In this document: positions 2,543-63,551 of the stretch, in pieces
Numbering within the stretch: the stretch's first letter is position 1
How the letters are laid out: each line of letters opens with the position of its first letter
Assembly (NCBI RefSeq): GCF_012932365.1
Contig: NZ_JAAIIH010000006.1
Location: 1 to 64,000 of the forward strand
Length of the DNA: 64,000 nucleotides
Source: Bifidobacterium moraviense
Lineage (GTDB): Bacteria > Actinomycetota > Actinomycetes > Actinomycetales > Bifidobacteriaceae
Direction: 5' to 3'
Position numbers and translations under genes: made by a program
Notes under the pieces: model-generated
The model's database searches: none
The model's input: only the letters and a program-made list of their open reading frames with translations
What the model was told of the DNA's origin: nothing

Positions 2543-3829
2543 TCAGCCACGTCTGGACACGAGGGCGGCGGTCACTTCGGCGTCCACGGCGTCGGCCACC
2601 TGTCCCAGCCGCTCGGGGAAGAGGAAGCCGTAGACGTCCAGGGTGAGGCTGGCGGAGGTGTGGCCCATCTGGCGCTGCAGGATCTTCACGTCGGCGCCGG
2701 CCTTGATGGCGATGGCGGCGTATGAGTGGCGCAGGCTGTGCGGGGTGAGGCCCTCCACGTCCTGCAGACCGGCGAGTTCCACGGCCTTGTGCCAGACGCG
2801 TCGGCGCCAGTTGTGGTCGTTCACGTGTCCGCCTTTGGCGGAGCGGAACACGTAGGCGGTTTCCGGCTGTCCTTTGATCTGTTCGCGCAGCGGCTTCACG
2901 AGGAACTTGGGGATGGCCACGGTGCGCGGCTTGCCGGATTTGGGCGGTCCCAGCCGCTGCTTGGAGGCGCTGTTCTTCCATGTGCGCCGGATGCGGATCT
3001 GCCGGTTCGTCAGGTCCAGATCGCCCACCTGCAGTGCGAACGACTCGTTGATGCGCGTGCCCACGTAGCTTTGGAAGCGGATGATGAGTCCGTCCACCGG
3101 GCGCCCGATCACTTCTGCGGAGCGGGCGAGCTGTTCGATCTCCGGTACGTTGAGGAACACCAGATCCTTGTATTCCGGGCGTGGCACCTCCACGTCGCGC
3201 GCCGGGTTCTCCATGAGGTAGCGCGCCTTGACGGCGTATTCGAGCACGCCGGCGAACACCACCTTGACGATGCTTTTGACGGATCTGGGGGAGAGGGGTT
3301 TGGCGGCGCGACCCCGATGCAGCTCCGCCGGATAGTCGCCGGTGGCGAGGCTCGCCACCCAGCGGGCGATGTCGTCGTGCGTGATCGCGCCTATGGGCAC
3401 GTCGCTCCACCGCGGGTTCACGTAGACGCGCAGTTCGCATTCGTAGCGCAGCCGCACGCCTTCGCTCACGTTGTTCTTGGAGCGCAGCCACATGTCCGCC
3501 ACGTCTCTGAACCTGCGTTTCGCGTCGTGCGGGCTGGCGTAGCGCCCGCGGCGCACGTCGTCCTCCATGGCGGCGCGGAACGCTTCGGCGTCGGCGAGCT
3601 TGGCGAACGACTGCGAGTGTTGTCGGCGCGTGGTGCCCTCCACGGTGTACCAGCGGCATCGCCATCGGCGTCCCCTGCCGTAGCGCGACGACCGCCACCG
3701 TTCGTCCACCTGCGCGCGCATCGGGTCGCGGCATGCCGCGAGCGACCGTTTCGCCTGCGGCGGGGGCGGGACTCCGTCGTCGTTCTTCAGCCACAGGTCA
3801 TCGATCCATACGCGCGCCATGCCTTTCAT
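2543..3829 (-). CDS. Tyrosine site-specific integrase, phage or island type
   Basis: About 428 residues from ATG 3829. The N-terminal part is an Arg-rich AP2-like arm-binding segment (ARVWIDDLW, then a YGRGRRWRCRW strand), followed by a SAM-like core-binding domain (about 105-215) and a C-terminal catalytic domain. All expected catalytic residues are present: R259 (VGTRINE), a Lys in SGKPRTVAI, H364-x-x-R367 (HSLRHSY), H390 (QMGHTS) and Y400 (LDVYG). It should therefore be active. The start is uncertain: ATG 3958 would add 43 Arg/Pro-rich residues and does have an SD-like GGAGAG, whereas 3829 or 3820 fits the family. No excisionase, tRNA target or other phage gene is near it, so it looks like the remnant of an integrated element or a small solitary recombinase. 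Confidence 0.88.
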   Translation of the reverse strand: MKGMARVWIDDLWLKNDDGVPPPPQAKRSLAACRDPMRAQVDERWRSSRYGRGRRWRCRWYTVEGTTRRQHSQSFAKLADAEAFRAAMEDDVRRGRYASPHDAKRRFRDVADMWLRSKNNVSEGVRLRYECELRVYVNPRWSDVPIGAITHDDIARWVASLATGDYPAELHRGRAAKPLSPRSVKSIVKVVFAGVLEYAVKARYLMENPARDVEVPRPEYKDLVFLNVPEIEQLARSAEVIGRPVDGLIIRFQSYVGTRINESFALQVGDLDLTNRQIRIRRTWKNSASKQRLGPPKSGKPRTVAIPKFLVKPLREQIKGQPETAYVFRSAKGGHVNDHNWRRRVWHKAVELAGLQDVEGLTPHSLRHSYAAIAIKAGADVKILQRQMGHTSASLTLDVYGFLFPERLGQVADAVDAEVTAALVSRRG

Positions 3830-13438: not shown

Positions 13439-14761
13439 GTGGCAAAGGACAACGACATCCTGCACGTGAACGGCGGCAAGCCGCTCAACGGCACCATCAA
13501 GGTACGAGGCGCCAAGAACTTCGTGAGCAAGGCCATGGTCGCCGCGCTGCTCGCCCCCGGCGTCTCCGTGCTCAGGAACGTGCCCGAGATCCGCGACGTG
13601 CACGTGGTCTCCGACCTGCTGCGCCTGCACGGCGTGGACGTGACCGTGGACGGCGAGAAGGGCGTGGTCACCATCGACGCCACGCACGTGCGTCTGGCCG
13701 ACGTGGCCGACGTGGACACCCTCTCCGGCTCCTCGCGCATCCCGATCCTGTTCTCCGGCCCGCTCGTGCACCGCCTCGGCGAGGCGTTCATCCCCGCGCT
13801 CGGCGGCTGCGCGATCGGCGGCCGACCCATCGACTTCCACCTCGAGACCCTGCGCAAGCTCGGTGCCACGGTGGACAAGGAGCACAAGGACGGCATCCAC
13901 ATCACCGCGCCGAACGGCCTCAAGGGCGCGAAGATCCACCTGCCGTACCCGTCCGTCGGCGCCACCGAGCAGACGCTGCTCGCCGCCGTGCTGGCCGAAG
14001 GCAAGACCGAGCTGTCCGGCGCGGCCATCGAGCCGGAGATCATGGACCTCGTGGCCGTGCTGCAGAAGATGGGCGCGATCATCTCCGTGGACGTGGACCG
14101 CACGTTCCGCATCGAGGGCGTCAAGGAGCTCAAGGGCTACACGCACACGTCGCTCACCGACCGCATCGAGGCCGCTTCGTGGGCGTCGGCCGCGCTCGCC
14201 ACGCACGGCGACATCTTCGTCAAGGGCGCCACGCAGCCGGAGATGATGACGTTCCTCAACGTGTTCCGCAAGGTGGGCGGCGAATTCGACGTGACGGACA
14301 AGGGCATCCGCTTCTGGCATCCGGGCGGGGACCTCAAGCCCGTGGCCATCGAGACCGACGTACACCCCGGCTTCATGACCGACTGGCAGCAGCCGCTCGT
14401 GGTGGCCCTCACGCAGGCGAACGGCCTGTCGATCGTGCACGAGACGGTGTACGAGAACCGCTTCGGCTTCACCAAGCCGCTCGTGCAGATGGGCGCCACC
14501 ATCCAGCTGTACCGCGAGTGCCTCGGCTCGCTGCCGTGCCGCTTCCAGCAGCGCAACTACAAGCATTCGGCCGTGATCTTCGGACCCACGCCGCTCACTG
14601 GCCGCGACATCGACGTGCCGGATCTGCGCGGCGGCTTCTCGCACCTCATCGCGGCGCTGGCGGCGTCCGGCCCGTCCAACGTGCAGGGCATTTCGCTCAT
14701 CGACCGCGGCTACGCCGACTTCCGCGGCAAGCTGCACCAGCTCGGCGCGGATATCGACTGA
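13439..14761 (+). CDS. murA: UDP-N-acetylglucosamine 1-carboxyvinyltransferase
   Basis: A 440-residue EPSP-synthase-fold enzyme that transfers enolpyruvate from PEP to UDP-GlcNAc, the first committed step of peptidoglycan synthesis in the cytoplasm. RGAKNFVSKAMVAALL near the N-terminus is the conserved substrate-binding segment. The active-site Cys, target of fosfomycin, is kept as C124 in ALGGCAIGGRP. The C-terminal half has the DLRGGFSHLIAALAASG motif. GTG 13439 is preceded by GGGAGG, five bases away, an ideal site. It is monocistronic by position. Confidence 0.95.
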   Translation: MAKDNDILHVNGGKPLNGTIKVRGAKNFVSKAMVAALLAPGVSVLRNVPEIRDVHVVSDLLRLHGVDVTVDGEKGVVTIDATHVRLADVADVDTLSGSSRIPILFSGPLVHRLGEAFIPALGGCAIGGRPIDFHLETLRKLGATVDKEHKDGIHITAPNGLKGAKIHLPYPSVGATEQTLLAAVLAEGKTELSGAAIEPEIMDLVAVLQKMGAIISVDVDRTFRIEGVKELKGYTHTSLTDRIEAASWASAALATHGDIFVKGATQPEMMTFLNVFRKVGGEFDVTDKGIRFWHPGGDLKPVAIETDVHPGFMTDWQQPLVVALTQANGLSIVHETVYENRFGFTKPLVQMGATIQLYRECLGSLPCRFQQRNYKHSAVIFGPTPLTGRDIDVPDLRGGFSHLIAALAASGPSNVQGISLIDRGYADFRGKLHQLGADID

Positions 14762-15149
14762 CGGATATCGGCCGGGCGGACAACGGCTGACGGACAACAG
14801 CTGGCGGACAACAGCTGACGCCGGGATTGCTGGTTGTGTCGGCCGGCCTGCGGGTGGCGGCCCGTCTTCTCGCGCATGCATCCCCGTTCGCGGCGCCTTA
14901 TGACCTGCGGCGGGGATTTTCGTTGCCGCCGGCGCGAGGGGAAGACGCGGGGACGGCGTTCCGCGGCGCCGGGTCTCGCCGGGGCAACTGAACCGCGAGC
15001 CGGGGTGTGACGCGCGCCGGGTCTCGGCCGGCGCCGGCACGGCGGACCGGTCTTGGTGTTGGCCCGGCGCCGGCGCAGCGGGTCATCGGGCACGGCGGGA
15101 GGCGTCGGAACCCGCGAGCCGGTCCCCGATCGCGCGCGCCGGCTCGGAG

Positions 15150-15373
15150 AGGGGTATCTGCGGAGTCAGGGGTAGATTCCGCCGTCTGCACGAAGGTATC
15201 TGCAGAGTCAGGGTGCCCGAAAGGCCATACCGCGGGTATGGCATGAGACGAATCGTTGCAATGACGCCAATCACCGGTGCCGGTCAGACACGGATGCGCG
15301 GTCTAGGCACCCTGACTCTGCAGATACCTGTCTGCACATCCGGGAATCTACCCCTGACTCTGCAGATACCCCT
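15150..15373. repeat. Long inverted repeat with 68-bp arms, each holding two direct copies of a 20-mer
   Basis: The left arm 15150-15217 and the right arm 15306-15373 are reverse complements with about nine mismatches, all but one in the centre of the arm. Each arm carries two direct copies of GGTATCTGCAGAGTCAGGG (one with a G), so the motif occurs four times. The 88-base spacer contains its own palindrome, GCCATACC...GGTATGGC. Confidence 0.85.
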
Positions 15374-15596
15374 CGTTTCCGGCCGCCGGGACCCGCAGGC
15401 GACGCGCCGGCAGCCGGTCGCCGGTGCCGGTGCCTGGCAGACCGATGCCGGTGACCGGTGACCGGTGACCAGGCCGGCAGCCGGTAACCGGAGGACGGAA
15501 GAAGAGCCCCGCGCAATGTCGTCGAACCGCGGCACGACGTCCGCGAGCGATTAGCCGGCGGCTCGCAGAAGGCGCGAACAGCAACGAAAGTGCATG

Positions 15597-15627
15597 AAAA
15601 AGGGCCGCACCCTTGCGGATGCAGCCC
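15597..15627 (-). terminator. Terminator of rplS
   Basis: Read on the minus strand, GGGCTGCATCC, a GCAA loop and GGGTGCGGCCC form a stem followed by TTTTTC. It lies 49 bases past the rplS stop. Confidence 0.85.
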
Positions 15628-63420: not shown

Positions 63421-63551
63421 CATATCTGCCTATCCTTGGCTCGAATATCGCAAGGATCTGCAGATATGCATGCTGAGCGGCCGATTCGGGGCTGGTACGA
63501 CGCAGATCTGCCGATTCCTTGAATTTCGATGCCAAGGATTGGCAGATATGC
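63421..63551. repeat. Two palindromes with a GCAGATATGC arm
   Basis: In 63421-63468 CATATCTGC and ATCCTT face AAGGAT and GCAGATATG. In 63502-63551 GCAGATCTGCCGATTCCTT faces AAGGATTGGCAGATATGC. Both lie in the gap between the oligopeptidase and leuB genes and may terminate transcription. Confidence 0.8.

Follow-up and report, generated by a model that had tools for sequence, protein, structure and literature searches.

The intergenic region separating murA from rplS in Bifidobacterium moraviense carries an inverted repeat, at positions 15149..15374 of the 64,000-nucleotide stretch of DNA that we analysed (the window), which belongs to a dispersed family of four-site elements. These elements have a common architecture, their sites are helically phased, many of them are inherited vertically, and the word that their sites display follows the genome more than it follows the locus. 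The reading that we favour, with a probability of about 0.5 and on the strength of sequence comparison, is that the element would be a docking site in double-stranded DNA for a multi-subunit protein complex, with a fast-evolving reader. In what follows G, C and L numbers are our handles for genomes, contigs and loci.

The window element is a true inverted repeat, as the initial annotation had it, with arms (15149-15217 and 15306-15374) that are 87% complementary, 69 nt long rather than the 68 first proposed, and separated by 88 nt, a distance that was confirmed when re-measured. The motif TATCTGC[AG]GAGTCAGGG occurs twice in each arm, the two starts being 42 bp apart. The claim that there are two motif copies per arm therefore stands, with the correction that the repeated word is not a 20-mer: it is the 19-mer GGTATCTGCAGAGTCAGGG, found at 15195(+), 15310(-) and 15352(-), while the copy at 15153(+) has one G/A change. 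As had also been remarked, the mismatches between the arms gather at their centre, mainly within the 24-25 nt that separate the motifs. From left to right, the parts are the outer arm site M1 (TATCTGCGGAGTCAGGGG, 15155..15172, forward strand), a left 24-bp spacer of fixed length and variable sequence (15173..15196), and the inner arm site M2 (TATCTGCAGAGTCAGGGT, 15197..15214, forward strand), 42 bp past M1; beyond the gap come the inverted copies, inner M3 (15309..15326, reverse strand) and outer M4 (15351..15368, reverse strand), on either side of a right 24-bp spacer (15327..15350). The left half of the gap holds a small perfect dyad, GCCATACC-GCG-GGTATGGC (15224..15242), which makes an inner hairpin of the predicted fold, and a core word picked by eye and regular expression, CGTTGCAATGACGCC (15254..15268), lies near the centre of the 96-bp gap; variants of it, picked in the same way, are present in most of the other copies of this genome. 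With up to three mismatches the motif matches four times in the window (mean 0.01 in 100 shuffles of the window, none of which had four), and a scan that is agnostic to arm sequence finds a single element there, 15149-15374.

Both neighbouring genes, murA (13439..14761, forward strand) and rplS, which encodes ribosomal protein L19 (15676..16044, reverse strand), turn their 3' ends towards the element. A comparison of this gap between related species had been proposed in the initial annotation; it proved informative: the murA-rplS adjacency, and the element at that junction, were seen in B. moraviense alone among 30 rplS loci. In 22 named Bifidobacteriaceae no rplS was found near murA within the 6 kb fetched. 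Because this adjacency with its element was seen in none of these relatives, we take the junction that holds the window copy to be a rearranged one. On its other flank, close to a pyrD-like gene, murA has an element in B. myosotis and B. simiarum. Elsewhere in the window, positions 2630-3142 encode a tyrosine recombinase domain (PF00589, 83 bits); genes that score about as high are present in G079, G093, G051 and G016. The palindromes at 63421-63551 do share the word TATCTGC, as first noticed, but differ in motif and geometry: they belong to a separate dispersed family of ATATCTGCCNATCCTTG hairpins (approximately 46 bp), paired 82 bp apart, with 37 matches in the genome at two mismatches or fewer against 1 for a control.

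The case of a motif that occurs nowhere else, considered at the outset, fails at the scale of the genome: its 2.56 Mb hold 51 + 51 motif matches, against 1 for a reversed control pattern. After removal of one spurious weak pair (L046:1359), these make at least 27 clusters, a lower bound to which one or two copies might be added, and all of them lie between genes predicted by a home-made gene finder trained on the 64-kb window. The plan M1-42-M2-gap-M3-42-M4 is complete in 23 of the 27 copies listed. One of these has extra tandem 42-bp units (L059:2002-2150, between infB and rbfA, with four forward arm motifs and the 42-bp unit tandemly repeated almost unchanged), which tells us that units can be added. 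Four of the 27 (L045, L047, L048 and the first element of L055) have lost the inner motifs; this is consistent with deletion between two AGATATCTG palindromes that flank these motifs, and the remaining gaps, 52, 52, 52 and 48, are off the ladder described below. The neighbours are ordinary genes, such as infB-rbfA, gatB, recQ-luxS, ferritin or those for sugar-binding proteins, and where both were called (25 copies) they are oriented '--' in 9 cases, convergent in 8, '++' in 7 and divergent in 1. A Pfam scan of 50 of the 52 predicted neighbours, leaving out L039:2319-2591 and murA, brought out no common theme and no recurrent DNA-binding gene.

The spacing of the sites is strikingly regular. 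Within the genome of B. moraviense the distance between inner motifs is 85-87 (5 copies), 96-97 (10), 106-108 (7) or 120 (1), and 20,000 uniform nulls never reached this periodicity. In a set of 133 elements drawn from many species it is 74-77 (55 elements), 84-88 (54), 96-97 (12) and 106-108 (7), with five others at 55, 65, 118, 120 and 139; these counts include orthologues and are not independent, so that the sample size is overstated. Gap lengths between the arms fall on a ladder with rungs at about 76, 87, 97 and 108 bp. When arm periods from 26 to 60 bp (35 values) were scanned at 30 trpS loci with no assumption about the arms, matches appeared at 42 only, at 17 loci; 42 bp makes four turns of B-DNA. 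In the B. moraviense copies related core words (CGTTGCAATGACGCC in the window copy, GGCGGAATTCCGCC in others) lie near the centre of the gap. Their distance to the left arm is about 34-36, 44-46 or 56 bp and that to the right arm mostly 41-44 or 55 bp, with single copies at 36/51 and 44/33; these words were chosen by eye, and of 23 one gave no match and another a match at the wrong place. The sites are helically phased, as is expected of a multi-site DNA docking site.

The family extends through the genus. Of 112 Bifidobacterium genomes, 12 are matched by a model built from the arms of B. moraviense; copies in other species follow the same plan with an altered motif middle. Leaving this middle free (TATCT-N9-GGGG-N24-TATCT-N9-GGG) brings the count to 24 of 112, for 2 control matches overall. 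Among 396 genomes of the order the same pattern is found in 6, all of them among the 22 Bifidobacterium sampled, and in none of the 374 others. The gap downstream of trpS contains an element in 17 of 30 species, and 7 of these 17 genomes (G098, G041, G067, G023, G075, G091 and G094) are negative for the pattern, so that 24 of 112 is a lower bound. The arms missed in this way read, for example, TTTCTTCAATCTGAGAGGCAG or TATCTGCGATCTGTGAGGCAG, and the gaps of the seven elements, read by hand in the same register, are approximately 75-76 or 86, again on the ladder. Searches of plasmids and phages gave no element match; 2.9 million viral contigs gave one exact pattern match, which looks like chance in AT-rich DNA. 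We found no description of these elements in the literature searched. Two observations in B. myosotis may be recorded here: a palindromic array near rplS (L344:2200-2400), with ACTGTCGG words about every 21 bp, was caught by the 42-bp scanner, and a pair of closely similar elements, equally oriented and 16 kb from each other (L240:2502 and L240:18602), lies near two conserved genes for tyrosine recombinases.

Vertical inheritance has kept many elements at the ends of the same genes. In the 133-element set the recurrent neighbours are trpS (8 genomes), a sodium:solute symporter gene (7) and an amidohydrolase gene (7), and neighbours face the elements by their 3' end in 155 cases (median distance 87 bp) as against 78 by their 5' end (median 210 bp). 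The flanks of 16 of the 20 G021 element loci fetched match those of G054 element loci. We used these G021-G054 pairs since, among the G021-G013 and G054-G013 pairs, several have a single flank in common, which makes loop and flank identities mix non-orthologous DNA; two pairs were dropped from the pair comparison because the G013 locus has only half an element (L324). Over the 16 orthologous pairs identity amounts to 0.89-0.90 for the motifs, 0.80 for the flanks, 0.74 for the spacers and 0.71 for the loops, where it must be kept in mind that elements, here as in the 133-element set, were chosen by their TATCT..GGGG frame and exact 42-bp spacing, so that framework identities are circular, while gap length and middle word are free of these selection conditions. 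Alignment gaps number 0 in spacers, 1 in motif positions and 188 in flank positions, a contrast conditioned on picking elements with at least one arm intact. Loop length is the same in most of the 16 pairs, and differs by 11 twice (87/76), by 22 once, by 42 once and by 1 once. The difference of 42 corresponds to one extra unit, and for that of 22 a third species is intermediate (87/75/65, differences of 12 and 22). Since the gaps of orthologues differ by 11, 12 and 22, they change in about whole turns.

Inheritance is accompanied by loss. Behind trpS, genome G072 (which we take to be B. longum-like, just as we take G050 to be B. breve-like) keeps a remnant of one arm only (TATCTTCACTTCGAGGGGCGGATTT). 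G076 has no element there, with a trpS flank that is, beyond the element, 92% identical to that of G017, and the pattern matches 0 times in the whole G076 genome and 15 times in G017. The relic and the absence together make the system dispensable, and it can be lost, apparently as a whole. The trpS gap of G024, by eye, has one motif per side and a gap of 76, and in B. moraviense itself the interval from trpS to the amidohydrolase gene is free of elements. Other palindromic repeats occupy the trpS gap in species without the four-site element (L384 in G024, L389 in G020, L373 in G065). The order of putP, the amidohydrolase gene and trpS also varies between species (L272, L273, L329, L245, L246, L186), which, judged from flanks alone, would fit an inversion with both breakpoints at elements.

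At nine positions in the middle of the motif, which make up its middle word, and leaving out 8 of the 133 elements for want of a genome assignment, agreement between loci of one genome is 77.4% (0.774). Between distant genomes it is 60.3% (0.603) for the same locus and 50.1% (0.501) for different loci; between sister genomes, 79.6% for the same locus and 69.3% for another. The middle word is thus largely common within a species and different between species, being inherited partly by locus, with a larger effect of the genome. Indeed, all the B. moraviense elements listed with an orthologue in a species using another word have the AGAGTCA-type word of their own genome. The spacers show this as well, less markedly than words, with a likeness of 0.595 inside one genome and of 0.493 between distant genomes, so that part of the effect may reflect composition or copying instead of a reader. 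As to symmetry, over the 133 elements M1 resembles its dyad partner M4, and M2 its partner M3, more closely than by chance and more closely than direct neighbours resemble each other. In B. moraviense the left and right motifs are correlated (p 0.001 and 0.005), and left-right pairing of the 25-nt spacers is 0.635 within copies and 0.639 between copies (p 0.62), on which ground hairpin pairing was discarded as the driver; over the 133 elements the latter comparison gives a modest excess (0.611 within, 0.563 between). Hairpin-templated copying may contribute to the likeness of the arms.

How might such a site work? Two arm sites per side, four helical turns apart, would line up copies of one protein along a single face of the helix. 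As the arms are inverted about the core and the gap shifts by approximately whole turns, the two sides could then meet across a bent or looped core, the length of the gap counting modulo one turn. A dedicated DNA-binding protein would read the arm sites, its preferred middle word shifting between species and the sites of the genome following suit; we infer this reader because words are common across a genome at inherited places. The task most likely served would be at the level of the chromosome (anchoring, topology or recombination control) and not the regulation of a gene set, because the sites persist at fixed places, mainly past the 3' ends of ordinary genes. The fixed 42-bp period and the lack of a T-run at 264 of 266 element ends suggest reading at the DNA rather than the RNA level. 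This is in line with the binding-site cluster of the initial annotation, a proposal that the dispersed copies, the 42-bp period, the helical steps of the gap and a motif conserved better than spacer, loop and flank all favour. Several facts count against the docking site and its reader. No reader protein was found and no DNA-binding gene recurs beside elements among the neighbour genes examined, the system is dispensable, as G072 and G076 show, words correlate somewhat by locus (0.603 versus 0.501), and the better match of M1 with M4 and of M2 with M3 is also explained by a hairpin. A wider proposition, which we put forward tentatively and hold to be rather doubtful, is that bifidobacteria possess a site-reader system with tens of ancestral, fixed docking sites, the word of which is rewritten genome-wide as the specificity of the reader changes, and which can be lost whole.

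Other explanations must be weighed against the docking site. The elements might be a family of MITEs mobilised in trans, in which each arm would be a long terminal repeat bearing a pair of transposase sites and the helical gap would reflect synapsis of close ends. Dispersal in at least 27 copies within one genome, long inverted repeats whose ends have two sites each, short copies that look internally deleted (4 of the 27 listed) and a window copy at a junction not common to relatives would all suit this account, and amplified species-specific subfamilies would yield genome-specific words. Yet many copies are orthologous, hence mostly old, and have kept motif and phasing while their spacers drifted to 74%; there is no phage or plasmid match; no cargo-bearing copy was met among the fetched loci, motif matches in B. 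moraviense being clustered in compact elements; and at the one locus compared, trpS, alignment of the relatives without an element brings out no clean empty site, but a relic in G072 and a gap like that of a deletion in G076. These facts speak against the ends of a small non-autonomous element, the other suggestion of the initial annotation, and make us consider the MITE account unlikely, though an ancient origin as MITEs may lie behind the family. Attachment sites of a tyrosine recombinase (arm-type and core sites as in phage att, or the ends of recombinase-in-trio or mobile integrase cassettes), with inversions between copies, would account for arms that stand, left and right, at stepped distances from a palindromic core, and for the putP/amidohydrolase/trpS order if the breakpoints lie at elements; cassettes with a 20-bp palindrome and an inverted repeat are described in B. 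longum (PMC2430713). Against this, the cassette repeat given there differs in sequence and spacing, the elements are stable between species, and G021, with 41 arm matches, has two PF00589 matches only, both strong and, as we read them, XerC/XerD-like, in a search that a very divergent recombinase could escape and that leaves XerC/XerD as possible partners. Adjacent tyrosine recombinase trios resembling RIT elements or mobile integrase cassettes exist in G013 and G093 (L231, L232). The ends of such trios were tried as candidates and rejected: those in G013 (C17) and G093 (C35) have no arms, and G021 has its two recombinases for 41 arm matches. A dedicated tyrosine-recombinase att site is probably not what we see, and we rate this whole line of explanation as quite improbable.

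An action at the RNA level, where transcripts would carry towards their 3' end a long hairpin serving as a terminator, a stability element or a processing site, draws on the very stable predicted fold of the window element (-164 kcal/mol, z -14), on the preference for gene 3' ends (155 against 78) and on the best agreement being that of M1 with M4 and of M2 with M3. A hairpin, however, needs neither a fixed 42-bp period nor whole-turn changes in its loop; pairing of the 24-nt spacers is hardly better inside an element than from one element to another; and Rfam gave nothing above gathering score for the window element, with chance microRNA models below the cut-off only. The intrinsic terminator was rejected, a T-run directly following the hairpin at only 2 of 266 element ends. 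Moreover rplS has its own terminator-like hairpin with T-run ahead of the element (15605..15618, reverse strand; 1 found, 0.4 expected from shuffles), and a strict finder saw a terminator before the element in 4 of 17 trpS genomes. We would be surprised if RNA were the main level of action, while the hairpin may contribute. Finally, the elements could be extragenic palindromes of the REP/BIME kind with a general role, bound by gyrase, HU or an IHF-like protein and having no dedicated reader. They are intergenic, dispersed, imperfectly palindromic and mostly at gene 3' ends, but a species-specific arm word is hard to square with a general architectural protein, and B. moraviense lacks an IS200/RAYT-type transposase. 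On this last point the REP/RAYT pairing was discarded, PF01797 (Y1 HUH transposase) having 0 matches in this genome and the control being positive in 5 of 14 genomes; there seems to be little chance that this description is sufficient.

If the docking site is the right reading, bifidobacteria would have a genus-wide chromosomal docking system, unnamed in the literature searched, with a geometry that can be read from sequence alone. It would explain intergenic palindromes otherwise set aside as repeats and offer a natural series of changes in protein-DNA specificity; as close species differ in presence and in word, the reader and the reason for its fast change should be findable by direct comparison.

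The proposed mode of action, dispersed intergenic palindromes used as docking sites, is a familiar one, and none of the families tested for their defining features fits. The matS sites of MatP, the Noc sites and P1 parS are dispersed or multi-site docking sites of chromosomes or plasmids, and P1 parS has helically phased sites. Each matS or Noc site is one short sequence, in contrast to the four sites of the elements, and we know of none of these systems (matS/MatP, Noc, P1 parS) that changes its word between congeners at fixed loci. The attachment sites of phages and ICEs, where arm-type sites flank a core-type site at helically defined distances, come near in layout; unlike them, the elements are symmetric and intergenic, number 10-30 copies per genome and occur in at least one genome, G021, where no dedicated recombinase is seen. 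Mobile integrase cassettes or RIT elements are on record in bifidobacteria, with three recombinase genes, a palindrome and an inverted repeat (PMC2430713, PMC3414803), from which the elements depart by repeat sequence and spacing and by the absence of arms at two trios. REP sequences and BIMEs are likewise dispersed intergenic imperfect palindromes biased towards gene 3' ends (PMC12306157 on RepRanger). The Bifidobacterium elements differ from these by four sites of fixed period, a helical ladder of gaps and a species-specific word at inherited loci, and B. moraviense differs from REP bearers by having no RAYT gene. For the behaviour of the word there is a parallel with the recombination hotspots of PRDM9, where reader and word shift together genome-wide; PRDM9 is eukaryotic and its positions move, whereas the positions of the elements stay. 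Should the site-reader system be real, it would amount to a PRDM9-like moving specificity in bacteria, exerted on a set of addresses that does not move.
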